A DNA stretch of 64,000 nucleotides from Bradyrhizobium guangdongense (GTDB taxonomy: Bacteria; Pseudomonadota; Alphaproteobacteria; Rhizobiales; Xanthobacteraceae), in contig NZ_CP030051.1 in NCBI RefSeq assembly GCF_004114975.1, forward strand, positions 6,200,001 through 6,264,000. Reading direction: 5' to 3'. The notes beneath the pieces were generated by a model that saw only the letters and a program-made list of their open reading frames with translations, was not told where the DNA came from and did not search any database. Shown piece by piece: positions 14,188-59,308 of the stretch (within the stretch, counting starts at the first letter, position 1; each line of letters begins with the position of its first letter). The translations under genes and the position numbers were made by a program.

Positions 14188-14462
14188 GTGCAGGCCTTCG
14201 ATCGTTGTTGGTGCATTCATCGTAGAGGACGCATCATTCCGGCCGCGCCGGCGGTGCCGACCCGGGTCTTGCGGCGCGCTTGCGCCGGGAGATCAACGAT
14301 GTATCGATTTCAAGCCGGACTCCGTCGCGTCCAAATCGACGAGCCGGGCCGGAAATTATCCAGCAGGACTATGAGACAGCGTTTCGTGCTCCCGAGATGC
14401 TTTGCGCTTGGTTTTATGGCTTGCGTCTATAGCGAACTGTCATAGAAAGGTGCAGCCTACGT

Positions 14463-37278: not shown

Positions 37279-38567
37279 GCCAGATACCCCCGGTCACGGG
37301 CGACCGTCGCAGCCCTGTCCCACGCATCTGCGATCCGTCGCCAGGTCAGCCGCGCGACGAAGAAGCCGCCAACGACGAGAACGGCCGCGGCAATCCAGGT
37401 CACCGGCGAGGTCGGGTTGAAGGCAATGCCAAACAGGTTGATGGGATCGCCGCCGGAGAAACGTGCAACGGTCTCGATTGTCAGGATCACGCCGCACGCC
37501 AGTGCGACCGTGGGTACGATCGCAACGAGATAGGATGGGATCACGGTCCACAGCGTCCCGGCACGGATCAGCGGTCGGTGCATCATCAACAGGCCGGCGA
37601 TGCCGCCGGGCGAGAACATCACGATGCCGATGAAGATGATGCCGAAATAAAGCTGCCAGACGCCGGTGAGGTTGGTCAGCCCGAGTTGCAGGTAGGTCAC
37701 CAGGATGGCGCCGAGGATCGGGCCGAAGAAATAGGCGGTGCCGCCGATAAAGGTCGAGAACAGCACGAGGCCGGACTGGATTGCGCCGAGATAGGCGGAG
37801 TTGGCGATCTCGAAATTGATCGCGGCAAGCCCGCCCGCGACGCCGGCGAAGAACCCGGCGAAACAGAAGGCGAGATAGCGCACCACGTGCGGATCGTAGC
37901 CGATGAACTGGACGCGTTCGGGATTATCGCGGACCGCATTGCTGATCCGTCCCAGCGGCGTCCGGGTCAGCGCGTACATCGCGATTGCCGACAGCACCAG
38001 CCAGAACGCAATGAGATAATAGACCTGAAGCTGCGGCCCGAACGACCAGCCGAGCATCTTCGGCAACGCGGTGCGGTCCGTGGTGATGCCGGACTCGCCA
38101 CCGAACACCGAGCGCAGGATCAGCGATGAGGACGCCACCAATTCGCCGATGCCGAGCGAGATCATCGCAAACACCGTACCGGCGCGCTTGGTCATCACCC
38201 AGCCGATGATAACAGCGAAGACAAGGCCGCCGAGCCCGCCGAACAGCGGGATGAAAGGCAGCGGGATCGGCCAGCCGTGCGACACAACCGCATTCATCAT
38301 GTGGCAGGCGGCGAAGCCGCCGAGGCCGTAATGCACGGCATGACCGAACGACAACAGGCCGGTCTGGCCGAGCAGGATGTTGTAGGACAGCGCGAACACG
38401 ATCGCGATGCCGATCAGGCTGAAGGAGGTGAGCGAGCCGCCGGAGGAGAAGATCATCGGCAGCACGATCAGCGCGGCGATGCCGAGCAGCCAGACGCCGT
38501 AGAAGCGCAGGCTTCCGCCGGACGCATCCGCCGCCACCTTGGAAGTCGAAGTCGGGGCCGTGGTCAT
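37275..38567 (-). CDS. livM: Branched-chain amino acid ABC transporter permease LivM
   Basis: A 430-residue inner-membrane permease with about 9-10 helices, starting MTTAPTSTSKVAADASGG. LivM marks are FALSYNILLGQTGLLSFGHA, FAMISLGIGELVASSSLILR, RTPLGRISNAVRDNPERVQF and a closing region with FSPGGIAGLL. The last ~90 residues add two or three extra helices (VIPSYLVAIVPTVALACGV; NPTSPVTWIAAAVLVVGGFF) beyond the usual LivM length. It overlaps livG and livH by four bases each, indicating translational coupling. Confidence 0.94.
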   Translation of the reverse strand: MTTAPTSTSKVAADASGGSLRFYGVWLLGIAALIVLPMIFSSGGSLTSFSLIGIAIVFALSYNILLGQTGLLSFGHAVHYGLGGFAACHMMNAVVSHGWPIPLPFIPLFGGLGGLVFAVIIGWVMTKRAGTVFAMISLGIGELVASSSLILRSVFGGESGITTDRTALPKMLGWSFGPQLQVYYLIAFWLVLSAIAMYALTRTPLGRISNAVRDNPERVQFIGYDPHVVRYLAFCFAGFFAGVAGGLAAINFEIANSAYLGAIQSGLVLFSTFIGGTAYFFGPILGAILVTYLQLGLTNLTGVWQLYFGIIFIGIVMFSPGGIAGLLMMHRPLIRAGTLWTVIPSYLVAIVPTVALACGVILTIETVARFSGGDPINLFGIAFNPTSPVTWIAAAVLVVGGFFVARLTWRRIADAWDRAATVARDRGYLA

Positions 38568-39511
38568 GATTCGCGCGTCCCCATCAGGCCCATGGGGCGT
38601 ACGATCAGAATGATCACGAGCAGAAGATACGGAACGATCGGCGCGACCTGCGCGATCGTGACGTTCCAGATGTCGGTGAGAACCGACGGACCCGCCGACG
38701 GATCGAGCGGCCCGAAGGCGCTCGCGAGCGAGCCATCCAGCGCCACGGCAAAGGTCTGGACCAGGCCGATGACGAGCGAGGCGATGAAGGCGCCCGGCAG
38801 GGAGCCGAGGCCGCCGAACACGATGACCACGAACAGGATGGGCCCGAGCGAGGCGGCCATGTCGGACTGCGTCACCAGCGCGGGACCTGCAATGACGCCG
38901 GCAAGACCGGCCAGCGCGCTGCCGACCCCGAACACGGCCATGAAGACACGCCCGACATTATGGCCGAGATGCCCGACCATGTGCGGATGCGTCAGCGCCG
39001 CCTGCACGATGAGGCCGACGCGGGTGCGCTTGAGCACGACCAGAAGCGCCACGAAAATGACGACCGAGACGGCCAGCATGAAAATCTTGTAGGCCGGATA
39101 GTTGGTCGAGAAGATCGTGAAGGCCGGGAAATCCAGCAAAGCCGGCACGCGGTAATCGAGCGGGCTCTTGCCCCAGATCATCGAGACGATTTCTTCGATC
39201 GCGAATGCCAGACCAAAGGTCAGCAGCAGCTCGGCGACATGGCCGTGCTTGTGGGTGTTGCGCAGGCCGTAGCGCTCCACCGCCATCCCGATCGCGCCGA
39301 CCAGAAGCGGCGCCAGCACCAGCGCCGGCCAGAAGCCGATCCATTTGGTGAGCTGGAAGCCGAAGAACGCGCCGAGCATGTAGAAGCTGGCATGGGCGAA
39401 ATTGAGCACGCCCATCATGCTGAAGATGACGGTGAGCCCGCTCGACAGCAGGAAGAGCAGCATGCCGAACAGCACACCGTTCAGGGTCGAAATGACAACG
39501 AGTTCAAGCAC
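38564..39511 (-). CDS. livH: Branched-chain amino acid ABC transporter permease LivH
   Basis: A 315-residue inner-membrane permease. It begins MLELVVISTLNGVLFGMLLF with LLSSGLTVIFSMMGVLNFAH, the LivH N-terminal pattern, then ERYGLRNTHKHGHVAELLLT and the EAA-like loop RTRVGLIVQAALTHPHMVGH LGHN region. The second half has FGGLGSLPGAFIASLVIGLV, the coupling segment, and ends VIILIVRPMGLMGTRES. Eight or so membrane helices. It is 122 bases downstream of the livK gene and overlaps livM by four bases. Confidence 0.94.
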   Translation of the reverse strand: MLELVVISTLNGVLFGMLLFLLSSGLTVIFSMMGVLNFAHASFYMLGAFFGFQLTKWIGFWPALVLAPLLVGAIGMAVERYGLRNTHKHGHVAELLLTFGLAFAIEEIVSMIWGKSPLDYRVPALLDFPAFTIFSTNYPAYKIFMLAVSVVIFVALLVVLKRTRVGLIVQAALTHPHMVGHLGHNVGRVFMAVFGVGSALAGLAGVIAGPALVTQSDMAASLGPILFVVIVFGGLGSLPGAFIASLVIGLVQTFAVALDGSLASAFGPLDPSAGPSVLTDIWNVTIAQVAPIVPYLLLVIILIVRPMGLMGTRES

Positions 39512-39633
39512 GGCTCACTCATGAATATCCGGGGCCGCATGGCCCCGGCGAACCTCGTCCAGGCGATCAATTGCATTCCGGCCGCCGCCCTCCCGCAACC
39601 GGTCGCGGTGCGGGATGGCGACGTACTCCGTGA

Positions 39634-40866
39634 TTACGGGCGCACCATCTTGCAGGTCGTGGAGACCATGGCCTGCGGCGTATCGACCCGGGAAACCAGA
39701 TGCCAGCCCCAACCGGTGCCCTCCTCGTCGAACGGCTCGTTGGCGGCGAGCTTGCCGAAGGAAGAGACGTAGATCGGCTGGAAGAACTGATGGTCGTCCT
39801 TGCGCATGAAGCCCTGTCCGCCGTCGAGGACGTCGAACTTCATGTCCTCGAGCGCCGCTGCGACCTTTACCGGATCGATCGAATTCGCCTTCTCGGCCGC
39901 AGCCTTGAACATGCGCATCTCGTTGACGGCACGAGGATACCACAGGGATAGGTTCACCTTGGCGCGGAAGGCCTTCTCGAAATCCATCGCGGTCTGATTG
40001 CCGGAGTTGGGGAAACCTTCAGTGATCTGGAAGACCTGGTGATCGAGACCGGTCTGCTTGATCGCGGTCGGACCGCCGGCGCCACCGGCATAATAGGTGT
40101 ACCAGTTGACCTTCAGGCCGGCATCGGCCGCTGCCTTGAGCAGCAGCGCGAAGTCCTGGCCCCAATTGCCGGTGACGACGCTATCGGCGCCCGACGCCTT
40201 GATCTTGGCGATGTAGGGGGAGAAGTCCGTCACCTTGAGCAGCGGGTGCAGCTCGTCGCCGACGATCTGGACGTCAGGCCGCTTCGCGCCCAGCATCTTG
40301 CGCGCATCGGAGCGCACGGACTGGCCGAACGAATAGTCCTGGTTGATCAGATAGACCTTTTTGATCGACGGGACGTCCTTCATGTAGTTGGTGAGCGCCT
40401 CCATCTTGATGTCGGAGCTGGCATCCCAGCGGAAATGCCAGAAGCTGCACTTCTCGTTGGTCAGGCTCGGATCGACAGCGGCGTAGTTGAAGTACAGAAC
40501 TTCCTTGCCGGGATTGCGCGTGTTGTTCTTGGTGACGAAGTCTTCCAGTGCAGCGGCGACGGAGGAGCCGTTGCCTTGGGTGATGTAGTGGGCTCCGGCG
40601 TCGATCGCCTTCTGGGCCTGCACCAGGCTTTCCTGCGGATTGGTCTTGTTGTCCAGCGGCAGGATCTCGACCTTGTGGCCGAGGATGCCGCCCTTGGCGT
40701 TGATCTCGTCGGCCAGATACTGGAACGTCTTGAGGCCGCCCTCGCCGACACTGGCACCGCCGCCGGAAAGCGGATCGATATAGCCGATCTTGATGGTATC
40801 CTCGGCCGACGCTGCTTGGCCGAGCATCGGGGCAATCACGGCAATGGCCAAAGTGAGCTTGCGCAT
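39634..40866 (-). CDS. Branched-chain amino acid ABC transporter substrate-binding protein (LivK type)
   Basis: A 410-residue periplasmic receptor, first gene of the liv operon. ATG at 40866 starts MRKLTLAIAVIAPMLGQAAS, a signal peptide ending ASAE. The mature start DTIKIGYIDPLSGGGASVGE is typical of type I Liv receptors; later INAKGGILGHKVEILPLDNK, ITQGNGSSVAAALEDFV and VVTGNWGQDFALLLKAAADA. It binds the substrate imported by LivHM-GF. Homologous receptors with this start often take amides, aromatic acids or leucine; the ligand is unknown. A palindrome lies 23 bases upstream of the start codon. Confidence 0.92.
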   Translation of the reverse strand: MRKLTLAIAVIAPMLGQAASAEDTIKIGYIDPLSGGGASVGEGGLKTFQYLADEINAKGGILGHKVEILPLDNKTNPQESLVQAQKAIDAGAHYITQGNGSSVAAALEDFVTKNNTRNPGKEVLYFNYAAVDPSLTNEKCSFWHFRWDASSDIKMEALTNYMKDVPSIKKVYLINQDYSFGQSVRSDARKMLGAKRPDVQIVGDELHPLLKVTDFSPYIAKIKASGADSVVTGNWGQDFALLLKAAADAGLKVNWYTYYAGGAGGPTAIKQTGLDHQVFQITEGFPNSGNQTAMDFEKAFRAKVNLSLWYPRAVNEMRMFKAAAEKANSIDPVKVAAALEDMKFDVLDGGQGFMRKDDHQFFQPIYVSSFGKLAANEPFDEEGTGWGWHLVSRVDTPQAMVSTTCKMVRP

Positions 40867-46155: not shown

Positions 46156-46950
46156 TTAGCCATCCGACGGCAGCCCCTGCGCGATGCCGCGAAAGCGCAG
46201 CGGCGCCAGCGACGCTGCTCGCTGCCACCAATCGGCGACGCGATCGTCGAGCGCCGTCACGCCACGGCCATGACCGGGAAAGATCCGGATCTGCTGCACA
46301 GCCTCGGCCTCGAACCCCTTGCCCTTGCGCGTGATCTTGAGGGCGGTACCCTCGCGGTCCCGCTGCGTCAGCGGCACCAGCAGGCGACCGCGCGGGCGGA
46401 GCGCACCGAGCCAGAGCGGATGCGGATGCGAGAAGCCGGCATGCACGATGATGACGTCGACCGGATCGATGATGTCCGTACTGCCGTCAGCATGAATGAC
46501 CTCGACATTGTGATAAGCGCGAAGATAGGCCGCGGCGCGCAAGGCGAGCCGCTCATCGCATTCGATGGCGTGCACCCTGCCCTTCGGACCCACGATCTCC
46601 GACAGGACCGCCGAGAAATAGCCGAGCCCGCATCCGATCTGAACCACGCGATCCTTTTCTCCGACATCGAGCAGATCAATAAAGTGCGCCCACAAGCTCG
46701 GCAGCCCGGTGTCGAGCTTGCGGCGCGCGTCGATGGCGACCAGCACATTGTCGTAGAGATGAATGGGATCGGCGTCGGGCGTCAGCCGATAGCTGCGTGC
46801 CGCCGCGCTCTTGATCCGCCAAGGGCCCTTCGCAAGAAACTCCTCGCGCGGCACCTTCGCCAGAGCTTCGAGCAGGCGTGGCGAGGCAATCCGCTCCCGC
46901 CTGGCAATCAGCGCTGCGTAGCGGGCACGCGCCGCGGACAGCTCACTCAT
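46156..46950 (-). CDS. Protein-L-isoaspartate O-methyltransferase-like protein
   Basis: A 264-residue SAM-dependent enzyme of the PCMT fold. The N-terminal segment SELSAARARYAALIARRERI, then LLEALAKVPREEFL, and the motif I region VVQIGCGLGYFSAVLSEIVG with IECDERLALRA match the family. The usual PCMT substrate loop is only partly recognisable (PDADPIHLYDNVLVAID). The C-terminal half (LWLGALRPRGRLLVPLTQRD) fits. Its start codon overlaps the end of the giant cyclase gene by eight bases, so it is probably cotranscribed with it. It may repair isoaspartyl damage or methylate another target. Confidence 0.82.
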   Translation of the reverse strand: MSELSAARARYAALIARRERIASPRLLEALAKVPREEFLAKGPWRIKSAAARSYRLTPDADPIHLYDNVLVAIDARRKLDTGLPSLWAHFIDLLDVGEKDRVVQIGCGLGYFSAVLSEIVGPKGRVHAIECDERLALRAAAYLRAYHNVEVIHADGSTDIIDPVDVIIVHAGFSHPHPLWLGALRPRGRLLVPLTQRDREGTALKITRKGKGFEAEAVQQIRIFPGHGRGVTALDDRVADWWQRAASLAPLRFRGIAQGLPSDG

Positions 46951-49900
46951 TTCGCGGAATTTGCGGACGAACGGGCGCTTCGCCCCCGAGCTCGTGCACG
47001 AGCTGCATGGCCAGCTTCAGGTCGGGCGTCAAAAACCCCTCGTTGAACTTGCCGACGATCGGCAAGAGCAACAGGCTCGCCTGTTCGCGCTTGCCGGCCT
47101 CGAGCGACAGCCGCGCCAGGCTGACGGCGGTCCTGAGCTCCCACGACAAAGCGCTCTGCTTGCGCGCCGTCTCCAGCGACAGGCCGAACAGGTCTTCGGC
47201 CTCCTGCACCGAGACCGGATCGCCATCCGATAGCGTGATCTCGCCCTGCAGGCGATAGACCTCGGCGAGGTAGGAGTGATCGCCGGTCCGTCTTGCGGTC
47301 GCAAGAGCACCGTCCAGCGCACGCAGGGCGGCATCGCGCATGCCGACCTTGGCGTAGGCCTCCGCGAGCAGGCAGCGGAACCAGCAGCCGGCGAGCCATG
47401 AATCCATCGCCTCGTATTCATCGAGGCCGGAACGCATCTGGGTGATGCCTTCTTCGGCTTCGCCAAGCTGCGCCAGCGCCCAGCCCCGCAGGATCGTGGC
47501 CTGCTGCTTCCAGTGCAGGAAATTGTGCTCGGTGGCGATGATCATGGCGCGATTGGCATGGTCGCGCGTGCCCTCGATGTCGCGCAGATGCTGGCTGAGA
47601 TAGGCGCCGAACACCAATGCGAAGGCGAGCGAGAAAGGATGGCGGATCTTCTCCGCAAGCTGGATTGCCTGTTCGCTGTGCTGGCGCGCCGCGTCAGGCT
47701 GCCCCAGGAACCAGAGGAGATAGCCGAGATAAGACAACGAGACGACGCCGGGATCGGTGCCGTGACGCTCCATCAGATCGGAGTGCAGGTCGGGGCTGTA
47801 GAGATCGATGCAGCGATGCAGATGATGCTGCGCGGCGGCGAAGCGCCCGCGATACAGCATCGTCATCGCGATCGAACGGTGCGCCTCGATCAGATAGCCG
47901 GTCTGCTGCGCCGGCTCCGCCTGCTCGTTCAACCGCTCCCGCTTGGCGAATTTCAGCAGCTCAACGCTGAGATCGTGTGCGCGGGTGAGATCGGCGCGGA
48001 TGAAGTGACAGACCCAGAGGCCGCGGGTGGCTGCAAACGCCTTTTCGTCGTCCTCGAGTTGCTGGCCGAGCTCGAGCGCACGGATATAGTTCTCCTCGAC
48101 CTCCTGCACGGCATAGCCCTTGGCTGCGATCAACGCATTGCCGAGCGCAATGCGCAACTCGAGCTCCATCTCGTCGGCGCCCTGCATACGCGCATTGGCC
48201 TGCACGACGCTCAAGCCCCGGCGCAGATGTCCGATCGCCTCCAGATTGGCGCCGCTCCTCGCCGCCTGCTTGCCGGCCTTGAGCCAGAAGCTGGCCGCGC
48301 CCTCGCTCTGGCCAGATTCGGTGAGGTGATGGGCGAGCAGCTCCGGCTCGCGCTCGGTCTTCTCCGGGTACATCTCGACAAGCACCTGGGCGATACTCGC
48401 ATGCAGCTTGCGCCGTTCGCTGTGCAGCAGGCTCGCATGCGCCGCGTTCTGGATCATGACGTGCTTGAAGGAGTAGAGCGCATCGGGCGGATGACCGCGG
48501 CGCATGATGAGCCCGGCTTCCTCCAGGTGCGTCAGCGCCGCCTCGATCTGCTCCGCCGGCGTGTTGGCGACCGCGTGCAGCGTCTCGTAGGAGAATTCGC
48601 GGCCGATGGTGGCGCCGATCTGTGCGATACGCTTGAAGGGGCCCATCCGGTCGAGACGCGCCATCAGTGAATCCGTCAGCGTTGCCGGGATGGCAAGCTG
48701 CCGCCACGGGCCCGACAGCACATAGCGCCCGTGCCGCTCGGTCAGGAGGTTGGATTCGAGGACCGTCTTCGTCAGCTCCTCCAGGAACAGCGGCACGCCG
48801 TCGGTCTTGACGATGATCTCCTCGACGACCTCCTTGGGAAGCTCGCGCCCTGCGACACGTTCGACCAGCGTCGTGCGCAACGGCCGGCTGAGCCGGTTCA
48901 GCACCAGCGTGGTGATGTGCGAATGCGCGTTCCAGCTCGGCTGGAATTCGGAGCGCGCAGTGAGGATGGCGAGAATCGGCCGGTTCTGCACCCTGTCGAC
49001 CAGGAGGTCGACCACCTCGCGGGAGGTCGGATCGATCCAGTGCAGGTCCTCAAAGACCATCACCAGCGGCATCTCGCGTGCGAGGCCGAGGAAATGGTTG
49101 ACCAGAGCTGCGACCGTGGCGTCTTTCTGCTGCTGCGGCGAGAGGTCGAGCGGCGGATAGCGCTCCCCGGTCGGTATCGACAGCAGCGCGGCAAACAGCG
49201 GCGCCACCTGCTCGACATCGCCGTGCGCGGCGGCGATCGCCGTCTCCAGGCTCGCCAACGACAGCGCGGACGCATCCTCGCGATCGAGGCCGAGCGAGAA
49301 TTTGAGCTGCTCGACGAACGGGTAGAACGCGGTGGAAGTGTAATAGGGCGAGCACTGGAACGAGACCTGACCGTGCCGGTCGCCGGCGATGCGCTCGAAG
49401 ATCTCCCGGATGATGCGGGACTTACCGATGCCGGGCTCGCCGAACTTGACGACGACCTGGCCGTCGCCCTCCTTGACCTGCTGCCAGCGCCCCATCAGCA
49501 GCGCGATTTCCTCCTCGCGATTGACGAGGGGCGTCAGCCGCGTGCCCATGGCGGCGGCAAAGCGGGTCTCCACCCGGGTCGCCCGCACGACGTGCCAGGC
49601 CTGGGTTTTTTCCGAGATACCTTTCAGGGCATGGGTGCCGAGATTGCGGTAATCGAACTTCCCCTTCAGCAGCGATTGCGTCGAGGCGGAGATCACAACG
49701 CCATTGGGCGGCGCCAGCGCCTGCAGACGCGCCGCCAGATTGACGGTCTCGCCGACCGCGGAGTCGCGCTCTTCGGTGCCCTGGCCAACGAGGTCGCCGA
49801 CCACGACGAGACCGGTCGCGATTCCGATACGGACGGCGGGGGCATGGCTGAGCGCCCCGCGCGGCTCGATCGCACGCGCCGTCGAGAGCACCCGCACGAT

Positions 49901-50407
49901 CTCGAGCCCGGCGCGCACCGAGCGCTCGGCGTCGTCCTCGTGTGCGGTCGGATAACCGAAATAGACCAGGATGCCGTCACCGACGAAGCGGGCGGCGAAG
50001 CCTTCGTAATGCTTGACCACGCGCACGCAGGTCTCGCGAAAGCTCGCGATCATGTCGCGCACGTCTTCCGGATCGAACTGGGCCGAGAGCGCGGTGGAAT
50101 CCACCATGTCGCAGAACATGGTGGTGAGCTGGCGCCGCTCGGCGCCGACTTCGGTACGGGCCGGCGGGTGCGCGGGTGCGACCGACGCTTCCGCCGTCTC
50201 GGCCTGGAACAACGCGGCCATAGCACGCTGTAACCGCTTGCGATCGCCGAGCGGCAGGCCGAGCTCGGCGAGGTCTGCCTCGGTGAGGTCCCCAATGACG
50301 TCGAGATCGAGGCGGTGCTGCGCGAACAGGTCGGTGTAGTGGCCGAGGCCGGCGCCTTCGAGCCAGCGCCTCAACCCGGCTTCCGTCTGCGGCTCTTTCT
50401 CCAGCAT
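46943..50407 (-). CDS. SAM-cyclase-AAA-TPR signalling ATPase (1154 aa)
   Basis: A giant of 1154 residues with four parts. A SAM-like domain at about 10-68 (LRRWLEGAGLGHYTDLFAQH, then LTEADLAELGLPLGDRKRLQ). A class III cyclase domain at about 90-265 with LTTMFCDMVDSTALSAQFD, RFVGDGILVYFGYP and GETVNLAARLQ; the usual substrate Lys is replaced by Arg in AARFVGDG. An AAA-type ATPase near 290-560 with Walker A GEPGIGKSRIIREIF and VMVFEDLHWIDPT. Then TPR-like helical repeats to the end. This order is common in Bradyrhizobium. It is likely a cytosolic signalling switch; cyclase activity is uncertain. It overlaps the PCMT-like gene by eight bases and is divergent from the NRPS gene. Confidence 0.88.
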   Translation of the reverse strand: MLEKEPQTEAGLRRWLEGAGLGHYTDLFAQHRLDLDVIGDLTEADLAELGLPLGDRKRLQRAMAALFQAETAEASVAPAHPPARTEVGAERRQLTTMFCDMVDSTALSAQFDPEDVRDMIASFRETCVRVVKHYEGFAARFVGDGILVYFGYPTAHEDDAERSVRAGLEIVRVLSTARAIEPRGALSHAPAVRIGIATGLVVVGDLVGQGTEERDSAVGETVNLAARLQALAPPNGVVISASTQSLLKGKFDYRNLGTHALKGISEKTQAWHVVRATRVETRFAAAMGTRLTPLVNREEEIALLMGRWQQVKEGDGQVVVKFGEPGIGKSRIIREIFERIAGDRHGQVSFQCSPYYTSTAFYPFVEQLKFSLGLDREDASALSLASLETAIAAAHGDVEQVAPLFAALLSIPTGERYPPLDLSPQQQKDATVAALVNHFLGLAREMPLVMVFEDLHWIDPTSREVVDLLVDRVQNRPILAILTARSEFQPSWNAHSHITTLVLNRLSRPLRTTLVERVAGRELPKEVVEEIIVKTDGVPLFLEELTKTVLESNLLTERHGRYVLSGPWRQLAIPATLTDSLMARLDRMGPFKRIAQIGATIGREFSYETLHAVANTPAEQIEAALTHLEEAGLIMRRGHPPDALYSFKHVMIQNAAHASLLHSERRKLHASIAQVLVEMYPEKTEREPELLAHHLTESGQSEGAASFWLKAGKQAARSGANLEAIGHLRRGLSVVQANARMQGADEMELELRIALGNALIAAKGYAVQEVEENYIRALELGQQLEDDEKAFAATRGLWVCHFIRADLTRAHDLSVELLKFAKRERLNEQAEPAQQTGYLIEAHRSIAMTMLYRGRFAAAQHHLHRCIDLYSPDLHSDLMERHGTDPGVVSLSYLGYLLWFLGQPDAARQHSEQAIQLAEKIRHPFSLAFALVFGAYLSQHLRDIEGTRDHANRAMIIATEHNFLHWKQQATILRGWALAQLGEAEEGITQMRSGLDEYEAMDSWLAGCWFRCLLAEAYAKVGMRDAALRALDGALATARRTGDHSYLAEVYRLQGEITLSDGDPVSVQEAEDLFGLSLETARKQSALSWELRTAVSLARLSLEAGKREQASLLLLPIVGKFNEGFLTPDLKLAMQLVHELGGEAPVRPQIPRNE

Positions 50408-50542
50408 GGTGATTCCGCCCGACTTTCCCTCCGTCGAAGGGCTAATGGGCCCTCAACCACAGATTTTGGGGCCCAAACTTCACCTCAGACTGGACGCGTT
50501 CCCTAACTCCGGGGAAGAATAGCCCAATCGGATCAAAAGGGA

Positions 50543-53500
50543 ATGGCATTGTCGGCAATTGCATCCGGAGCACGAGGTGGGTCGGCCGGCACGGGCGGAG
50601 CCGATACCATCGGCGGCCTTCTCGCCTTCCATGCGCGAACCATTCCGGCAGCACCTGCCCTGCTGGCCCCCGGCCGGCCGCCTTTGAGCTATGGCGCGCT
50701 GGGCGCCAGGCTCGAGCATCTCGTCGGTACGCTGCGCGGGCTCGGCATCGCTCCCTCCCACCGGATTGCTGTTGCGCTGCCGCGCGGGGCCGACAGCGCG
50801 TTGGCTCTGATCGCGGTTGCCACGGCCTGCGCCTGCGTCCCCGTCAACCCCGATCTGACGATGGACGAGCTGCAACGCTATTTCAGCGAGATGAAGCCGG
50901 CGGCGCTGGTGACGCGGGCCGACACGAATTCGCCGAGTCGCGACATCGCCAGGACGCTCGACATTCCCCTGATCGACTTCGTGCCGGGGCCGGAGACGGA
51001 TCTCGGCGAGTGTGGATTCTTCGGCCCGACAATCGGTCCGGCCAGCACGGGCGGCGCAGCGAGCGCCGAGGACGATGCGTTCATCCTGCTGACATCGGGC
51101 ACGGCGGCGCGACCGAAAATGGTGCCGCTGACGCATCGCAACGTCTGCCTCTCCGCCCAGAACGCCGGACGCGTGCTGTCGCTCACCCCGCACGATCGCC
51201 TGCTCAACGTCCTGCCGCTGTTTCACGCCCACGGCCTGATCTCCGGCCTGCTGACGGCGCTCGCGGCCGGCTCCAGCGTGATCGTGACCGGGGGGTTCGA
51301 CGCACCGTCCTTTTTCGGTTGGATGCGGGATCTGCAACCGACCTGGTACACGGCAGTGCCGACCATTCATCGCGCATTGCTGACAGCCGCGGAAGCCAGC
51401 CCCGAACGTGTCCGATCGTCATCGCTGCGCGTGATCCGCTCGGCTTCGTCTTCGCTCGCGCCCGCCATCCTCAACGGCCTGGAGGCGGCGTTCGGCGTCC
51501 CCGTGCTCGAGACTTACGGGATGACCGAAGCGGCTTCGCAGATTGCTGCCAATCCGTTCGAGCTGCGCAAGGTCGGATCGGTTGGCCGCGCCGCGGGTCC
51601 TGAGATCGCGATCATGGACGAAACCGGCCGGACGCTCGCGCCCGGCGAGCGTGGCGAGATCGTGCTGCGCGGGCCGAACATGAGCCGCGGCTATCATAAT
51701 GACGAAGCGGCCACCCAGGCCGCGTTCCGCGACGGCTGGTTCCGGACCGGCGATCTCGGCTACCTCGATGCCGACGGCTATCTCTTCATCGTCGGCCGCA
51801 TCAAGGACATCATCAACCGCGGCGGCCAGAAGGTGTCGCCGCTGGAGGTCGAAGAGGTGCTGCTGGCCCACCCGGCAGTGCTGGAAGCCGGAGTCTTCCC
51901 AATTCCGCACGCAAAGCTAGGCGAGAACGTTGCCGCCCTCGTGGTTCTGCGTCCCGATTCCGAGGTAAGCTCGGATCGGTTGCGCCAATTCGCACGCAAG
52001 CGTCTTGCCGCCTACAAGGTGCCGAGCCTGATCCGCAGCGTGGCCGCTCTGCCGAAGGGCGCGAGCGGCAAGGTCAAGCGCAATGCGCTGGCCGAGCTGA
52101 TTTCGGTTGCCCATGACGACGACGATACGCAGCTGCCGCGCAACGCGCTGGAGACCCAGCTCGCGGAGATCTGGGCCAGTCTGCTCGAGCTTCCGCAAGT
52201 CGGCGTCGATCAGGACGTGTTTGCGCTCGGCGCCGACTCGCTCGCGGTCACGCAAATGCGTTCGCGCCTGCGCGAGCGCTTCAACGTGGACTTCTCGTTC
52301 GAGGACATCTTCGATTGCGCCACCGTCGGTGGTCTTGCGGCCCGGATCGAGGCCACGACGCATCGCGACGGGATGCTACCAGCATGGCGCCACATGGCTT
52401 CCGACGAAGACGCGCCGCTCTCGTTCCAGCAGCAGCGGATGTATGTGCTCTCGCGGCTGGATCCGACGCGCTACAATTACAACGTGGTCGAGGTCGCTCT
52501 CCTCAGGGGCGAGGTGGACCTCGCCGCGCTCGAGGCGGGCCTTGCTGCGATCTGCGCGCGTCACGAGGCGCTCCGCTCGGTCTTCGTCGAATGCGAGGGC
52601 GCACCTGTGCAGCGCGTGCTTCAGGCACGCCCGCGGCTCGAGCGGATCAAGCTCAAAGCCTGCCCTGCGCACCGGCGGGCTGCGCTCATTCGGCGCGAGG
52701 CGCTGAAGCTCGCGCAATACGCATTTGATCTGGCCCGGGAGCCGCCGCTCAAGGTGACGCTGCTCTCGTTCGACAGATCCAGCCATGCGCTGGTTGTCAA
52801 CGTCCATCACCTCGTCACCGACGGCTGGTCGCAGCGGCTGTTCTGGGAGGCCCTCGCCGCCGCATATTCTGCGGCACGCAAGCAAGGCACGGCGGAGCTA
52901 CCCCCGCCCAGCTTCCAATATCGGGACTTTGCTCGCTGGCAGCTGAGCTGGGCGCAAACGCCCGCAGCAAAGGAGCAGCTCGATTACTGGCGGGCGCAGC
53001 TCGATGGCGTCACCACGCTGCCGCTGCGGACCGACCGGCCGCGGCCGGAGATCTGGAGCGGTCACGGCGCCCGCCACTATTTCGAATTCCCCAGGAGCCT
53101 TTCGGCCGGCATTCGCACGCTGAGTCAGGATCAGGGCGTGACGTCTTTCATGACGCTGCTCACCGTTTTTCAGTGTCTGCTGTTCCGCCATACCGGGCAC
53201 GAGGATGTCGCGACCGGATCGCTGATCGCGAACCGTAACCAGATCGAGAGCGAACGCCTGATCGGGTTGTTTGCCAACACGCTGATCCTGCGCAACGATT
53301 TCGGCGGCGATCCGACCTTCAGCGAAATGCTGCGACGGGTGCGCCAGGTCACGCTCGATGCCTATCGCAACCAGGACCTTCCGATCGAGGAAGTCTTGCG
53401 CGCTTTGCAAATCGCGCGCAGGACGGATGGCAATCCGCTGTTCCGGATCATGTTCATCCTACAGAATGCTTCGATCGAGGCCGCGCGCTTCCCGAGCCTG

Positions 53501-56500
53501 TCGGCACGCCGGCTGGAGGTCGACCCGAAGGTCGCGCGCTTCGATATCACGCTGGAGCTGGTCGAGGCCGAGGGCCGCTTTACCGGCTTCTTCGAATACG
53601 CCACCAACCTGTTCGACGCAGCCACAATCGGGGGCATGGCGGATCAGTTCAAAACTCTGCTCAAGGCCGTCATCGCCAATCCCGAGCAGCGCATCTCGCG
53701 CCTGCCGCTGCTGACGGAGGTGGAACGCCGGCGATTGCCGGCGAAAGGCAGGCCGGCCAATTTCGCCACACGCGGCAATCTCTGCGAACGGTTCGAACGG
53801 CAGGCGAAGAAGACGCCGGACGCCATCGCTATATCCGATGGGCATCTCGCCCTGAGCTATCGCGAGCTGGCGCGCCGCAGCCAGGCGATCGCACGCTGGC
53901 TTAGCCGCGAAGGCGTCGGCGCGGAAAGCGTGGTCGCACTGCTGGCGGACCGGGGGCCGGATCTGCTCGCGGCGATGATCGCGGTGCAGCGCGCAGGCGC
54001 GGCGTTCCTGAATCTCGATCCCGAGCAGCCGCCGGCGCGGCTCGCAACCATCCTGGGATCAAGCTGCGCAACCGTGCTGCTCGTGGGGCGCGCAAGGTCG
54101 GCTATGGTTGATGCCCTGCTCGAACCGCTGGTTGAGCGCATCCTCGTGGCGGAGCTCGAGGACGCGATCGCGCTCGAACCGACGAAGCCCGCCCGTGCGG
54201 CGCAGCGTACAAGCACGAGCCTTGCCTATCTCGTCTACACCTCCGGCTCCTCCGGTGCGCCGAAGGGCGTCATGATCGAGCAGCGCGGGCTGTCCAATCA
54301 TCTGGCGTCGCTGATTTCCGAGCTTCGCCTCACCCCTAGGGACGTGATCGCCCAGACGGCCCCGCAGAGCTTTGTCATCTCGGTCTGGCAGTTCCTGGCC
54401 GGTCCCATGACCGGCGCGCGCGTCCATGTCTGCGGCAATTCGGTCGTGCAGGACCCGATGATGCTGGCGCGGGAGATCGAACGCGAGGGCATCACGGTGC
54501 TCGAGATCGTCCCTTCGCTGCTTCGCGTCATCCTGGAACGCCTCGACGAAGCGCCGATGCTGTGCGCCTTCGCCAAGCTGCGGCTGCTGATCTCGACGGG
54601 CGAGCCGCTGCCGGTCGAGCTCAGCCGGGCCTGGTTCGCACGCTGCCCGAAGGTGCCGCTGATCAACGCCTACGGGGCTTCGGAATGTTCCGACGACGTC
54701 TCGCTGCATCGACTGACCAGGGCGCCGGACACGGCGACGACCAATGTTCCGGTCGGAGCGCCACTACCCAACACCCAGCTCTACGTGCTCGATCCAAATC
54801 TGCAGCCGCAGCCGATCGGCGTCGTCGGCGAGCTCTGCATCGGCGGTGCCGCCGTCGGGCGCGGCTACATCAACGATCCCGCACAAAGCCGGGAACGCTT
54901 CATCCCCGATCCTTTCGCGCGGGCGAAAGGCAGCCGGCTGTACCGCACCGGCGACCTTGCCCGCCGCCGTGCCGACGGCACCATCGAATGCCTCGGCCGC
55001 GCCGACCTGCAGGTCAAGGTCCGTGGCTACCGCCTCGAGCTCAAGGAGATCGAGGCTGCGCTTGCCGACCACGCGAGCGTGCGCGCCGGCATCGTCGAGC
55101 CGCGCCGCGATGCCAATGGCGATGTCAGGCTGATCGCCCATGTCGTCCCCAGAGCCGGCACCCAGATCAGCGCCAGTGAGCTGCGCGACTTCCTCAAGAG
55201 CCGCCTGCCTGTTCATGCGATCCCCTCCGCGTTCCTGTTTCTGGATCAGGTGCCGTTGAATGCCCACGGCAAGCTCGATCGCTCAGCCCTGTTGACCCCG
55301 GTGCAGCAGGAGCCCGCAAGGACCGACGCTTCCGTGCCGGCGCGACGCTTCAGCGAAAAAGTCCTGTCGGACATCTGGATCGACTTGTTGGGGGTCGAGA
55401 GTCTCGGCGTCACCGACAATTTCTTCGACCTTGGCGGCCATTCGCTGCTGGCGGGCCAGGCGATGGCGCGCCTGGCCCGCGCGCTCGGGGTCTCCCTGCC
55501 GATCAAGACCATCTTCGAGGCGCCGACGATCGAGCAGCTCGCCCGACGCGTCGAAGAGGCTGCTGCCACGAAATCGCAAGGTCCAGTGGCCGCGATCCCA
55601 CGCCTGGTCGAGAGCGGACCTTCCACGCTGTCGATCGCGCAGGACCAGATGATGCGGATCGAGCGGAACCTGCCCGATCTGCCGCTGTTCAACCTGCCCT
55701 TCGCCTTCCACCTCGACGGGCCGGTCGATCCGCGACTACTGACGCAGGCCATCGACGACATCGTGCGCCGCCACGACTCGTTGCGGACGGCGTTCGGCTG
55801 GAATGGCGAGGAGCCGGTCGGCCACATCGCCGCGCCCGCTGCGCTCGGCCCGGTGCTGACCATCGAGACCGTCGGTGACGGGCGCCCCCACAACAACAAG
55901 CGGCGCAAAGCGCTCGAAGCGAGGAAGATCGAGCTCCTGATCGCGCAGGAGACCTATACCCCGGTCGACGCCGCCCGGGCGCCGCTGCTGCGGATGCGAC
56001 TGCTGCGGCTGCATGACCTGGAGCACATCCTGCTGCTGACGCTGCATCATGCCATCGCCGATGGCTGGTCGATCGGTGTGCTGTTCGAGGAATTGTCGAG
56101 TCGTTATGCCGCGCTGGCGGGCCGTCCATCGGCGCCTTTGCCAAGAGTGCCGCTCGCATTCTCCGACATCGCACGCTGGCAACGCTGGTGGTGCGGCACC
56201 GAGGCGGCCCGCCGGCAGGCAGCCGACTGGACCGAGAATTTGCGCGGTACAGCCCCCTTGTTCGACGGCGAAGCGCGGCCGGGCGCATCAACAGGCCATC
56301 ATCCGCTCAGCCTGGAGCGCGATCTCGTCGCCCGGCTCACGGCCTATGCACGACAGCACAATGCCACGCTGTTCATCTGCCTGCTCACCGGCCTGAAGGC
56401 CCTGCTGATGGCGCGGACCGGGCGCACCGACATTTCGGTCGCCACGGCCATGGCCAACCGCGCCCAGCCGGACACCGAGCGAATCGTGGGTCCGTTCGAG

Positions 56501-56968
56501 AACACGGTGATCGTCCGTAGCCGAATCACGCCGGATCTGTCGTTCACGCAAGCACTGGCCCGGGTGCGCGAAAGCGTGCTCGAGAGCCATGCGCGACAGG
56601 AGCTGCCGTTCAATATTCTGGCCGACCATCTGGAGCAGGAGGGCATCGATCCCGCGTCGCTGCTCCAAGTCTACTTCACCCTGCAAAATCCGTTGCGCCA
56701 ACCGCTCGACCTGCCCGATGTCGCGGTGCGGTCGATTGGAAACGTCGCGCGCGAGGGCCAACCGGTTTTGCCCGTCGACCAGACCTGGCTGTCACTGATG
56801 CTGAAGGAGCGCCCGAGCGGGATCACCGGTTCATGCAATTACAAGTGCGAGCTGCTCGACGGCGGCATGGTCGGCACGTGGATGGAGGATCTCGTCGCAC
56901 TGCTGGCGGGGGCCCTCTCCCAGCCCCATACAGCGCTCCATCGGCTACTCGACCGCCGCGCGGCATGA
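50543..56968 (+). CDS. Non-ribosomal peptide synthetase, A-T-C-A-T-C (2141 aa)
   Basis: A two-module NRPS with a terminal condensation domain and no thioesterase or reductase. A1 (about 25-530) resembles acyl/oxalyl-CoA ligases: FILLTSGTAARPKM, PLFHAHGLISGLLTA, YGMTEAASQIA, final Lys in KGASGKVKRN. T1 has GADSLAVTQM with Ser566. C1 (about 620-1050) has HHLVTDG with H755, H756, D760. A2 (about 1075-1580) has VYTSGSSGAPKG and YGASECSDD, but the D235-equivalent site reads SFVISVWQ with Val1278. T2 has DLGGHSLLAGQ with Ser1634. C2 (about 1690-2120) has HHAIADG, H1835-D1840. The start at 50543 has AAAAGGGA directly upstream; a TTG at 50549 is possible. A dedicated phosphopantetheinyl transferase and a flavin monooxygenase follow. 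An acyl-aminoacyl amide product is inferred. Confidence 0.92.
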   Translation: MALSAIASGARGGSAGTGGADTIGGLLAFHARTIPAAPALLAPGRPPLSYGALGARLEHLVGTLRGLGIAPSHRIAVALPRGADSALALIAVATACACVPVNPDLTMDELQRYFSEMKPAALVTRADTNSPSRDIARTLDIPLIDFVPGPETDLGECGFFGPTIGPASTGGAASAEDDAFILLTSGTAARPKMVPLTHRNVCLSAQNAGRVLSLTPHDRLLNVLPLFHAHGLISGLLTALAAGSSVIVTGGFDAPSFFGWMRDLQPTWYTAVPTIHRALLTAAEASPERVRSSSLRVIRSASSSLAPAILNGLEAAFGVPVLETYGMTEAASQIAANPFELRKVGSVGRAAGPEIAIMDETGRTLAPGERGEIVLRGPNMSRGYHNDEAATQAAFRDGWFRTGDLGYLDADGYLFIVGRIKDIINRGGQKVSPLEVEEVLLAHPAVLEAGVFPIPHAKLGENVAALVVLRPDSEVSSDRLRQFARKRLAAYKVPSLIRSVAALPKGASGKVKRNALAELISVAHDDDDTQLPRNALETQLAEIWASLLELPQVGVDQDVFALGADSLAVTQMRSRLRERFNVDFSFEDIFDCATVGGLAARIEATTHRDGMLPAWRHMASDEDAPLSFQQQRMYVLSRLDPTRYNYNVVEVALLRGEVDLAALEAGLAAICARHEALRSVFVECEGAPVQRVLQARPRLERIKLKACPAHRRAALIRREALKLAQYAFDLAREPPLKVTLLSFDRSSHALVVNVHHLVTDGWSQRLFWEALAAAYSAARKQGTAELPPPSFQYRDFARWQLSWAQTPAAKEQLDYWRAQLDGVTTLPLRTDRPRPEIWSGHGARHYFEFPRSLSAGIRTLSQDQGVTSFMTLLTVFQCLLFRHTGHEDVATGSLIANRNQIESERLIGLFANTLILRNDFGGDPTFSEMLRRVRQVTLDAYRNQDLPIEEVLRALQIARRTDGNPLFRIMFILQNASIEAARFPSLSARRLEVDPKVARFDITLELVEAEGRFTGFFEYATNLFDAATIGGMADQFKTLLKAVIANPEQRISRLPLLTEVERRRLPAKGRPANFATRGNLCERFERQAKKTPDAIAISDGHLALSYRELARRSQAIARWLSREGVGAESVVALLADRGPDLLAAMIAVQRAGAAFLNLDPEQPPARLATILGSSCATVLLVGRARSAMVDALLEPLVERILVAELEDAIALEPTKPARAAQRTSTSLAYLVYTSGSSGAPKGVMIEQRGLSNHLASLISELRLTPRDVIAQTAPQSFVISVWQFLAGPMTGARVHVCGNSVVQDPMMLAREIEREGITVLEIVPSLLRVILERLDEAPMLCAFAKLRLLISTGEPLPVELSRAWFARCPKVPLINAYGASECSDDVSLHRLTRAPDTATTNVPVGAPLPNTQLYVLDPNLQPQPIGVVGELCIGGAAVGRGYINDPAQSRERFIPDPFARAKGSRLYRTGDLARRRADGTIECLGRADLQVKVRGYRLELKEIEAALADHASVRAGIVEPRRDANGDVRLIAHVVPRAGTQISASELRDFLKSRLPVHAIPSAFLFLDQVPLNAHGKLDRSALLTPVQQEPARTDASVPARRFSEKVLSDIWIDLLGVESLGVTDNFFDLGGHSLLAGQAMARLARALGVSLPIKTIFEAPTIEQLARRVEEAAATKSQGPVAAIPRLVESGPSTLSIAQDQMMRIERNLPDLPLFNLPFAFHLDGPVDPRLLTQAIDDIVRRHDSLRTAFGWNGEEPVGHIAAPAALGPVLTIETVGDGRPHNNKRRKALEARKIELLIAQETYTPVDAARAPLLRMRLLRLHDLEHILLLTLHHAIADGWSIGVLFEELSSRYAALAGRPSAPLPRVPLAFSDIARWQRWWCGTEAARRQAADWTENLRGTAPLFDGEARPGASTGHHPLSLERDLVARLTAYARQHNATLFICLLTGLKALLMARTGRTDISVATAMANRAQPDTERIVGPFENTVIVRSRITPDLSFTQALARVRESVLESHARQELPFNILADHLEQEGIDPASLLQVYFTLQNPLRQPLDLPDVAVRSIGNVAREGQPVLPVDQTWLSLMLKERPSGITGSCNYKCELLDGGMVGTWMEDLVALLAGALSQPHTALHRLLDRRAA

Positions 56969-57107
56969 CCAGCCGTTCGTCGGCGCCGAACGGATATCCA
57001 CTCGCCAAAGCTGTGCATGGTGAAGTTGCATCTTGATTCTTTGGCGCCAGCGCGCAAGATTATTCCCGTGTTTTGATTTGGACGATATTTTAAACCGGGG
57101 GAGTGTT

Positions 57108-57275
57108 ATGGGTTTCATCAAATTTACCAAAGGCACCTCGCTGAGCGACAAGGACCGCAAGGCCCTGCAAAAACTGCTGACCGACGAGAAGAAGAAGCTC
57201 CAGTCGGCCCTGAAGGAAGTCGATGCCAGCCTTTCGGTGCTGGGTGGCTCGAAGAAGGCCAAGAAGAAGAAGTAG
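57108..57275 (+). CDS. Small Lys-rich protein (55 aa), hypothetical
   Basis: A 55-residue protein. ATG at 57108 follows GGGGGAG. It reads MGFIKFTKGTSLSDKDRKAL, then QKLLTDEKKKLQSALKEVDA, then SLSVLGGSKKAKKKK, so a helical, coiled-coil-prone middle and a poly-Lys tail. It lies 139 bases after the NRPS stop and 229 bases before the PPTase gene, on the same strand. It is too small for an MbtH protein and lacks its motifs. A role in binding nucleic acid or as a scaffold is possible; there is no known family I recognise. The frame extends upstream to 57033, but the ribosome site favours 57108. Confidence 0.6.
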   Translation: MGFIKFTKGTSLSDKDRKALQKLLTDEKKKLQSALKEVDASLSVLGGSKKAKKKK

Positions 57276-57503
57276 GACTCGGCGGCCGGGACGCCGCACG
57301 AATCTTCCGATCTAATTCTTGAATTGGGCCGCTCGCCTGTCGAGTTGGGGTCTCGCACAAGCTTGCGGCTGTAATCCGGCCAGCGATCGACAAGAATTTG
57401 CCCGGGTGGACCGCTAGAAGCGATCCGCTCAGTCGCTTCCTGTTCGGTTGATTCTTCAGTCAGGGCCGGATTTGGCCTCCACCTGGCGCTATGGGCCCAT
57501 TTG

Positions 57504-58235
57504 ATGCCAAACGACGGAATTGAACTGTTTGTCGGACTGATCGAGAGCATCGATACGCCGGGCGCGGTCGATGCGTGCCGGAGGTTGCTCTCCATCGACG
57601 AACGGATCCGCGCCGACCGCTTCAAGTTCGAGCGGCATCAGCGGCAATATATCTTCGCGCACGCAATGTTGCGTATGGCGCTCTCGCACGCGGCACCCGA
57701 TGTCGCCCCCACCGAATGGTCGTTTTCGACCGGCCGCTACGGACGGCCCTTTGTCGCATCGCCCAGGCAGGCGACGGCCCTCCATTACAGCCTGTCGCAT
57801 GCCGACGGCTGTGTCGCCTGCGTCGTTTCAAAGCACGAGGCCGTCGGCGTCGACGTCGAGACCGTGTCGCGGCGTGTCGCGCCGCTATCGACCGCGCTCC
57901 GCTTCTTTGCGCCGGAGGAGGTCGAAACGCTGCGCGGCCTGCCGGAGCCGGCCGCAATCGAGCGTTTCTTCGACTATTGGACCTTGAAGGAGGCCTATCT
58001 GAAGGCCAGAGGTTTCGGCCTCAATCTGCCGCTCGATGCCTTCGCGATGCGGGTCTCGCGGGAGGCAATCGGGATCAGCTTCAAACCCGACATCGCCGAC
58101 GATCCCGCAGGCTGGCGCTTCTCGCTGTGCTCGCCCTCGCCCTCGCACCGCTTGGCGATCGCCGACGGCTCCCGTGCGGCCGGCGGCCTTCGTATCATCC
58201 GCAACGCCTGGCCGCTCCAGGAAGCGGCGGAATGA
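57504..58235 (+). CDS. Sfp-type 4'-phosphopantetheinyl transferase
   Basis: A 243-residue cytoplasmic enzyme that arms NRPS carrier proteins with phosphopantetheine. ATG at 57504; a TTG just before it is possible. Signature motifs are GVDVETVSRRV (about residue 116) and FFDYWTLKEAYLKARGFGL (about 155), with FSLSHADGCVACVVSKHE-like central HxxxC region LHYSLSHADG. Length and motifs match Sfp/EntD-type PPTases with two ferredoxin-like halves. It overlaps the next gene by four bases (ATGA), so the two are translationally coupled. Its place 0.5 kb from the NRPS suggests it activates both T domains. Confidence 0.92.
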   Translation: MPNDGIELFVGLIESIDTPGAVDACRRLLSIDERIRADRFKFERHQRQYIFAHAMLRMALSHAAPDVAPTEWSFSTGRYGRPFVASPRQATALHYSLSHADGCVACVVSKHEAVGVDVETVSRRVAPLSTALRFFAPEEVETLRGLPEPAAIERFFDYWTLKEAYLKARGFGLNLPLDAFAMRVSREAIGISFKPDIADDPAGWRFSLCSPSPSHRLAIADGSRAAGGLRIIRNAWPLQEAAE

Positions 58236-59212
58236 TGCCGGCGCGGCTGCGCATCTTTCCCGCAATCTCGCGCAACCGCGATCCGAAGAAATATGTCGGC
58301 GAGCTGATGCGCGTGGCGGAGTTCGCCGACCACAACGGCTTCGAGGGCATTCTGCTGTTCGAAGGCAACGACGTGTTTGTCGAGCCTTGGGCGATGGCCC
58401 AGCACATCATGGCCGCAACGAAGCGATCTTCGCCGCTGATCGCGGTCAATCCGGTCTACATGCACCCGTTCACGGCGGCGAAGTTCGTGTCGTCCCTGGC
58501 GCAGCTCTACGGCCGCAAGGTCTATCTCAACATGATCACGGGCACCGCGATCAGCGACCTGCAGGGACTCGGCGACCAGCAGTCGCATGCCGACCGCTAT
58601 ATCAGGCTCGGCGAGTTCGTCACCCTGGTGCGCCAGCTGCTCGCGAACCCCCGCCCGGTGAATGTCAGCGGCCGGTTCTACCGCGCCAGCAATCTGCAAC
58701 TGCGGCCACGACTGCCGCCCGAACTGATGCCTGAATTTCTCGTCGCGGGGCAATCGGATGCGGCGCAGCGCGTCGCAGAGGAGACCGGCTGCATCAAGAT
58801 GCAGATGCTGCCGCCCGATCTCGATCGCGGCCTCGGCGCATCAGGCATGAATTTTGGTATCTTCGCGCGCGAAAGTAGCGAGGAGGCGCGACGGGGCGCC
58901 AAGGCCCGCTTCCGCGACGACCCCGACGACCGCGAGCTGCTCGCACTCACGGTGGAGAACTCGGATTCCGTCTGGAAGCGGCGGCTGTATGAAGGGCAAA
59001 GCGGCGAACTCGCCGCCAATGGCTATTGGCTGCTGCCCTATCTCACTTTCCAGGCCGACTGTCCTTATCTCGTCGGCAGCTATGCCGAAATCGGCGCGAG
59101 GCTGAAGGAATTTGCCGCGAAAGGCCTGACCACCGTCATGCTCGACATGGTCGCCGACGGGAGCGAGATGCGGCACGTCTGCAAGGCGCTGAAAGCAAGT
59201 GGCATATTTTAG
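58232..59212 (+). CDS. LLM-class flavin-dependent monooxygenase
   Basis: A 326-residue member of the luciferase-like monooxygenase family, closest in look to SsuD/alkanesulfonate-type enzymes. It starts MMPARLRIFPAISRNRDPKK with EFADHNGFEGILLFEGND. Family marks are LIAVNPVYMHPFTAAKFVSS, LAQLYGRKVYLNMITGTAIS with RYIRLGEFVTLVRQLL, and FLVAGQSDAAQRVAEETGCI. It would use reduced flavin and O2 supplied by a separate reductase, absent here. Its ATG overlaps the PPTase stop codon, so it should act with the NRPS, perhaps oxidising the acid or the finished product. Such enzymes occur in natural-product clusters as N- or C-hydroxylases. Confidence 0.88.
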   Translation: MMPARLRIFPAISRNRDPKKYVGELMRVAEFADHNGFEGILLFEGNDVFVEPWAMAQHIMAATKRSSPLIAVNPVYMHPFTAAKFVSSLAQLYGRKVYLNMITGTAISDLQGLGDQQSHADRYIRLGEFVTLVRQLLANPRPVNVSGRFYRASNLQLRPRLPPELMPEFLVAGQSDAAQRVAEETGCIKMQMLPPDLDRGLGASGMNFGIFARESSEEARRGAKARFRDDPDDRELLALTVENSDSVWKRRLYEGQSGELAANGYWLLPYLTFQADCPYLVGSYAEIGARLKEFAAKGLTTVMLDMVADGSEMRHVCKALKASGIF

Positions 59213-59222
59213 ATATCCCTCG

Positions 59223-59308
59223 CGTCATGGCCGGGCTTGTCCCGGCCATCCACGCCTTGCCACACAGCACGAAGAACCTGGATGCCCGGGACAAGCCCGG
59301 GCATGACG
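59223..59308. repeat. Palindromic extragenic repeat
   Basis: Arms CGTCATGGCCGGGCTTGTCC (59223-59242, plus CGGCCATCCACG) and CCTGGATGCCCGGGACAAGC (59278-59297, plus CCGGGCATGACG) form a large imperfect hairpin around about 23 bases. This sequence family is recalled as highly repeated in Bradyrhizobium and Rhodopseudomonas genomes. It lies in the gap between the convergent LLM and deacetylase genes. Confidence 0.7.

Follow-up and report, generated by a model that had tools for sequence, protein, structure and literature searches.

The window analysed here, a stretch of 64,000 nucleotides from Bradyrhizobium guangdongense, carries a compact biosynthetic locus organised around one nonribosomal peptide synthetase (NRPS). 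A preliminary description of this DNA had proposed a 2141-residue protein with the domain order A-T-C-A-T-C (adenylation, carrier and condensation domains) and neither thioesterase (TE) nor reductase. The open reading frame (ORF) calls and the Pfam scan agree with it: two AMP-binding, two PP-binding and two Condensation stretches were found, and no thioesterase or reductase domain. The order that it gave for the same strand, a 55-residue lysine-rich ORF, then a Sfp-type phosphopantetheinyl transferase (PPTase), then a luciferase-like monooxygenase (LLM), is upheld by the coordinates and by the PF01648 and PF00296 scores, and the last two genes do overlap, the ATG of the LLM gene and the TGA of the PPTase gene forming ATGA. 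Its four genes stand, but it missed the divergent gene on their left (46943-50407) and the wide occurrence of the unit in the genus; the first domain, listed as a plain A, is indeed adenylating, but it belongs to the acyl-CoA-synthetase/oxalate clade. The features of the unit are:

50543..56968, + strand: whole NRPS gene, 2141 aa (ORF and Pfam domains)
50600..52096, + strand: A1, starter acyl-adenylating domain of the oxalyl-CoA-synthetase (AAE3) clade, NRPS residues 20-518
52157..52348, + strand: T1 carrier domain, motif FALGADSL
52406..53737, + strand: C1 condensation domain, HHLVTDGWS
53792..55312 (end approximate), + strand: A2 adenylation domain, pocket code VIWEITADDK (no Asp235)
55340..55582 (ends approximate), + strand: T2 carrier domain, motif DLGGHSLL
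55625..56944, + strand: terminal C domain, HHAIADGWS intact, nothing TE- or reductase-like after it
57108..57275, + strand: lysine-rich small protein, 55 aa
57504..58235, + strand: phosphopantetheinyl transferase (Sfp-type), 243 aa
58232..59212, + strand: LLM flavin monooxygenase-like protein, 326 aa, SsuD/MsuD fold, own NRPS-linked subfamily

The source genome (8.4 Mb, two contigs) has two Condensation matches, both inside this gene, which is therefore the only NRPS found in it. All four ORFs evolve like coding genes, under purifying selection, with median Ka/Ks values against the window copy of 0.16 for the NRPS (15 pairs), 0.13 for the lysine-rich protein (35), 0.14 for the PPTase (54) and 0.14 for the LLM (66); the window copy is one side of every pair, and the pairs are not independent. 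Given its low ratio, the 55-residue lysine-rich ORF is very likely a real gene; it matched no family above cut-off, and no paralogue was found in the genome at E 0.01. The PPTase ORF, read from 57501, matches PF01648 at 59.5 bits (cut-off 25). A second PF01648 match in the genome lies between ORFs that read, by eye, as PdxJ and signal peptidase, which is the usual place of acpS. The PPTase of the cluster, larger than AcpS and apart from the acpS locus so named, thus seems to be the genome's sole Sfp-type enzyme.

Conservation of the locus in Bradyrhizobium

Among 120 relatives searched, full-length NRPS orthologues (53-92% identity) were found in 29 of the 71 same-genus genomes, and forms without the terminal C domain in two more (G029, G064); three candidates were scored per genome, and some orthologues may have been missed. 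A search of GTDB contigs with the LLM only, by means of two peptide patterns, yielded 77 loci; 68 are of Bradyrhizobium type and nine are distant, and own-genome records may be left out of this set. Bradyrhizobium names are carried by 67 of the 68, and the other (L140, on a contig labelled Frankia sp. RB7) is a Bradyrhizobium-type locus with 89% LLM identity that is probably mislabelled or contaminated.

The NRPS gene adjoins the LLM gene in 68/68 Bradyrhizobium-type loci, being interrupted in two (L109, L130) and cut by the contig end in one (L132). After correction, A1 is present in 67 of them (the L132 match is a weak cross-hit where the contig is cut) and the terminal C domain in 65, since the matches in L143-L145 come from neighbouring NRPSs. 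By the preliminary description, separation of the four genes in relatives would weaken the unit. The NRPS and the LLM stay together; the lysine-rich and PPTase genes, each found in 62/68 loci, are less tightly bound, and one genome (G059) lacks the LLM gene. We conclude that this is a conserved Bradyrhizobium locus, and that the compact biosynthetic unit previously suggested, an acyl-starting NRPS with its own PPTase and an LLM, is supported.

Residue conservation was assessed on 69 rows, of which 65 were long ORFs from the 68 loci (none came from L109, L130 or L132), one was the window copy and three repeated genomes that the set already contained. The T1, C1 and T2 motifs are intact in 69/69 rows. 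Both carriers of the window keep the serine motif, and both of its C domains keep HHxxxDG, which in the terminal C domain is present in 65/65 rows having that domain. The first activating domain is an ANL enzyme of acyl-CoA-ligase type followed throughout (69/69 rows for T1 and C1) by a carrier serine and a C domain.

The two adenylating domains

Sequence comparisons place A1 with the oxalyl-CoA synthetases. It aligns over its full length with the plant enzymes (385 and 378 bits) and over residues 165-521 with the yeast enzyme (286 bits), the next family being malonyl-CoA synthetase at 206 bits; we take the solved enzymes that it matches to be those of Lathyrus, Arabidopsis and yeast. The motifs TWYTAVP, IRSxSxSL and YGMTEA are common to A1 and stand-alone bacterial relatives. 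In a tree of 25 domains, eight NRPS A1 domains cluster with four A-T-C paralogues (100/99), this group lies near the stand-alone clade (93/98), and the three next-best ligases of the same genome are separated from both (97/97); the tree carried a long-branch warning, and its grouping also encloses two further A-T-C proteins as well as two other rows with long branches. The next match to A1 in its own genome has 32% identity, hence it has no near paralogue there. Relatives at E 1e-90 or better occur in 94 of 385 genomes of the class (Alphaproteobacteria), and among these 94 only four have matches that reach into the carrier region: Bradyrhizobium G000 and G021 and, more weakly, G431 and G460. 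The A1 pocket code AHITISTSQ is found in 65/69 rows; no list of the oxalate-contacting residues of AAE3 was found in the literature searched. The source genome also encodes an oxalyl-CoA decarboxylase (1059 bits, curated cut-off 739), which indicates that it handles oxalate.

The stand-alone relatives of A1 have a recurrent neighbour of their own. A PanE-family gene adjoins the ligase in 22 of 23 distinct loci (17 among the best-scoring relatives and six others; L073 and L183 are the same genome), with 55-65% identity to the PanE of L075. This two-gene unit of ligase and PanE-family reductase recurs in Alphaproteobacteria (L169-L186, L074-L078) and is a candidate oxalate-to-glyoxylate route. 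The PanE of Methylobacterium is described as an oxalyl-CoA reductase that interconverts oxalyl-CoA and glyoxylate (PMC9485241).

The second domain is unusual in another way. Asp235 normally binds the alpha-amino group of the substrate of an A domain. Aligned to LgrA, A2 has Val at this position in 69/69 rows, with the code VIWEITADDK in 58 and VIWQITADDK in nine, and the same pocket code persists in relatives at 53-66% identity. This replacement predicts a non-alpha-amino substrate, and the sequence suggests that A2 does not use an alpha-amino acid. The nearest relatives outside the genus (45-50% identity; 40 proteins from the best 120 of 6383) mostly have DIWExTADDK, for example DIWELTADDK, so that Val235 looks like a change from Asp; two domains of one protein (P0264) also have Val235, with the remainder of the same kind. 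No literature match was found for DIWELTADDK and its variants, and a shorter string of the A2 code returned only unrelated papers among the matches listed. Beta-alanine was considered as the A2 substrate, an idea prompted by the code VDWVISLADK and by PanD genes near three distant LLM genes, and is not proposed here, the nearest A2 relatives giving it no support. These PanD genes (L153 768-1244, L155 11012-11404 and L156 7656-8003, the last locus also with a methylaspartate mutase gene) are an observation in their own right that suggests beta-amino acid precursors at the distant loci bearing them.

Flavoenzyme, proposed pathway and alternatives

The LLM protein matches PF00296 at 94.1 bits (cut-off 27.9), and its structure model (pLDDT 91.8) has the LLM fold, which it shares with SsuD/MsuD and their relatives SfnG and RutA. 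Could it be an SsuD-like sulfur-scavenging enzyme that adjoins the NRPS by chance? Its best sequence and fold matches are indeed SsuD/MsuD (best Foldseek E 3.7e-20, TM 0.77 by query length), and one source labels many of its relatives alkanesulfonate monooxygenase. However, identity to these enzymes is 22%, the score against the SsuD family is 79.9 bits for a curated cut-off of 518.2, the gene is coupled to the PPTase by ATGA, and it stands beside an NRPS in 68/68 loci. Of the nine distant loci, six also have A and C domains of NRPS type no more than about 10 kb from the LLM gene, and three have none. We consider chance adjacency very improbable, and we rejected an SsuD role on the family score and the NRPS linkage. 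The simplest reading is that the LLM is a dedicated NRPS-linked oxidase. Cys277-Pro278, not compared with SsuD, is among the invariant residues of 19 aligned members down to 33% identity, and at E 1e-40 the protein occurs in three of 385 genomes of the class, the window's own included. Two loci show other arrangements around this enzyme: in L154 (13520-15955) a condensation domain is fused to a luciferase-like monooxygenase in a locus that also holds a distant LLM relative, and in L051, the most divergent Bradyrhizobium locus, an extra FAD/NAD(P) oxidoreductase gene (12798-14432) lies between the NRPS and LLM genes.

From the domain content and motifs, the A1 clade, the loss of Asp235, the linkage, the selection and the predicted LLM fold, we infer a small assembly line whose starter is oxalate or a similar small acid, with oxidation by the LLM and release by the terminal C domain; we give this reading a probability of about 0.5. 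The PPTase would arm both carrier domains. A1, a captured ligase of oxalyl-CoA-synthetase type, would adenylate the starter and load it on T1 instead of CoA, and A2 would adenylate a second building block, carrying both an amine and a carboxylate but probably other than an alpha-amino acid, and load it on T2. C1 would then join the starter to the T2-borne unit as an amide, and the terminal C domain would transfer the chain to a free small amine or alcohol, releasing it without TE hydrolysis. The LLM flavoenzyme would oxidise the carrier-bound or released product, and the divergent cyclase-ATPase protein may control expression through the shared upstream region. The product had earlier been called an oxidised acyl-aminoacyl compound. 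The acyl start is supported; acyl-aminoacyl is too generic for an oxalyl-CoA-synthetase-type starter and an A2 without Asp235, and the product is only presumed to be oxidised.

Several known systems resemble parts of this scheme. PvdL-type NRPSs have the order AL-T-C-A-T, AL being an acyl ligase. Like the window's NRPS, they join an ANL acyl ligase to a carrier ahead of C-A-T, and PvdL chains match the C-A-T stretch of the window; the window's NRPS differs in having a ligase of the oxalyl-CoA-synthetase clade instead of a fatty-acyl one, a C domain at its end, and an A2 without Asp235. The oxalyl-CoA synthetases AAE3 and Pcs60 share the clade, the motifs and most pocket positions with A1, which differs by its fusion to a carrier and NRPS and by Ser in place of the pocket His. 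Some NRPSs release their product through a terminal C domain onto a free amine, as in the glidonin type, which the window's NRPS resembles in domain order, ending T-C without a TE. In grass pea, AAE3 is reported to feed activated oxalate into amide formation with an amine during beta-ODAP synthesis (PMC9935904), although this plant system uses the acyltransferase LsBOS and has neither carrier protein nor NRPS. The locus is a variant of the known acyl-ligase-started NRPS type, and its unusual points are the oxalate-type loading domain and the missing Asp235. The earlier impression that no described cluster has this layout was borne out among the literature matches listed, none of which dealt with this locus or with an NRPS that loads oxalate.

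Several observations weigh against the proposed assembly line. Some concern the integrity of the unit: the NRPS is interrupted in G046 and G040 (L061, L062) while the LLM and neighbours are kept, G059 has a full-length NRPS and has lost the LLM, and nothing in the unit was recognised as a transporter or precursor gene. Others concern release. Three GTDB loci (L143-L145) lack the terminal C domain. Two of these genomes, those of L143 and L145, also appear as L059 and L060, where the NRPS stops after T2 and the LLM gene comes next, then a separate NRPS whose order in L059 is C-A-T-TE. The release route is therefore not fixed across the family, and a partner enzyme might take over the chain from the terminal C domain, or the line might run iteratively, in place of release onto a free acceptor. 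The separate NRPS that follows where the domain is absent, the condensation domain found after the LLM in L143-L145, and the loss of the second His from the C domain of six A-T-C paralogues all favour this alternative. Yet no second NRPS was found in the source genome, and HHxxxDG is intact in every row having the terminal C domain. We regard a partner or iterative use as unlikely; judging from its domains, the window form probably releases through its own terminal C. The paralogues just mentioned (L053-L058, in five same-genus genomes) have HDxxxDG or HQxxxDG, so that their C domain may not condense; they have the same kind of starter domain, and several adjoin nucleotide-cyclase genes.

The remaining objections bear on the substrates. 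That of A2 cannot be named from sequence, and the PanE neighbours of the stand-alone ligases were matched at family level, not to Methylobacterium PanE itself. As for A1, the PheA 330 equivalent, which is Ser in the NRPS, is His in 23/23 stand-alone relatives and in the three solved oxalyl-CoA synthetases, and positions 235 and 322 differ as well; we therefore call the starter oxalate-like and not proven oxalate, and the pocket may accept another acid. The same machine could thus load glyoxylate, pyruvate, malonate or oxamate, for instance, through an oxalate-clade domain that was captured and re-tuned. For this alternative speak the changes that separate most NRPS and A-T-C proteins from stand-alone enzymes (His to Ser/Thr at the 330 equivalent, Ile/Val to Ala/Gly at 235, Ala/Ser to Thr at 322). 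Yet the remaining pocket positions and the clade motifs are largely unchanged, and each of the three solved enzymes that match best carries the name oxalyl-CoA synthetase or oxalate-CoA ligase. A re-tuned starter domain is a serious possibility that falls somewhat short of even odds. To the more specific proposal, that a catabolic oxalyl-CoA synthetase fused to a carrier loads oxalate itself and yields N-oxalyl compounds oxidised by the NRPS-dedicated LLM, we give the same tentative credence. A siderophore product appears improbable. Oxalyl or hydroxamate groups would bind iron, and two distant LLM relatives adjoin an NRPS and a TonB-dependent receptor (L153 Novispirillum, L160 Kiloniellales), but no TonB receptor or siderophore exporter was seen among the neighbouring ORFs scanned at about 32.5-63.9 kb (not every ORF was scanned). 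Moreover, one study detected no siderophore from five of its six Bradyrhizobium strains, B. diazoefficiens and B. liaoningense among them (PMC12815270), and the NRPS family includes proteins named from these two species, though not necessarily from the strains of that study.

Bradyrhizobium species nodulate soybean and other legumes, and this locus, full length in so many genomes of the genus, has no known product in the literature matches listed. If the starter of the proposed line is oxalate, it would, to our knowledge, be a new kind of NRPS loading unit, linking a plant-abundant acid to bacterial secondary metabolism, and would provide a conserved family of Bradyrhizobium metabolites derived from a compound that is common around plants. 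Because the pockets hardly vary and the unit is small (three enzymes and one small protein), its chemistry lends itself to direct tests with purified proteins.

Upstream region and neighbouring genes

On the left, the NRPS gene shares its upstream region with a divergent gene:

50408..50542, no strand: shared divergent upstream region, 135 bases
46943..50407, - strand: divergent SAM - nucleotide cyclase - AAA ATPase - TPR protein, 1154 aa, likely regulator
46156..46950, - strand: PCMT-family methyltransferase gene, membership uncertain

The upstream region was measured in 60 of the 68 loci. Where the orthologues have at least 78% protein identity, a cut that we chose, its median difference is 0.104 versus 0.340 at 4-fold sites, and it is less diverged than these sites in 52/52 loci. 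Below 78% it is not conserved in eight loci and differs more than 4-fold sites in four of them. Its slow divergence in the closer orthologues makes it a candidate shared control region, with 92% mean column identity in an alignment of eight. It also holds a near-palindrome around TTTGGGGCCCAAA that varies between genomes.

The cyclase-ATPase gene is present in 63/68 Bradyrhizobium-type loci, two of the five misses being at contig ends, and its product is a likely regulator. The evidence associating such cyclase genes with the A-T-C paralogues is weak, because they occur at several unrelated-looking places and no background rate was measured. A PCMT-family gene adjoins the NRPS in two variants without the cyclase gene (L059, L060) and was not found in L051. 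The downstream neighbours (histone-deacetylase-like and SGL genes) are absent from several loci that still hold the core.

No RNA element reached its gathering score in window 40000-64000, and consensus promoters and terminators showed no excess over shuffles. Although no sign tying them to the NRPS unit was seen, genes of a branched-chain amino-acid-type ABC transporter (two ATPases, two permeases and a binding protein) lie about 10 kb to its left, at 35834-40866. A plasmid origin was considered and rejected, since a near search of plasmids gave only a repeat of roughly 45 bases 3' of the LLM gene. At this place (59231-59300) the window has a facing repeat pair (CCGGGCTTGTCCCGGCCATCC), and a similar stretch occurs in five plasmid records from other bacteria.

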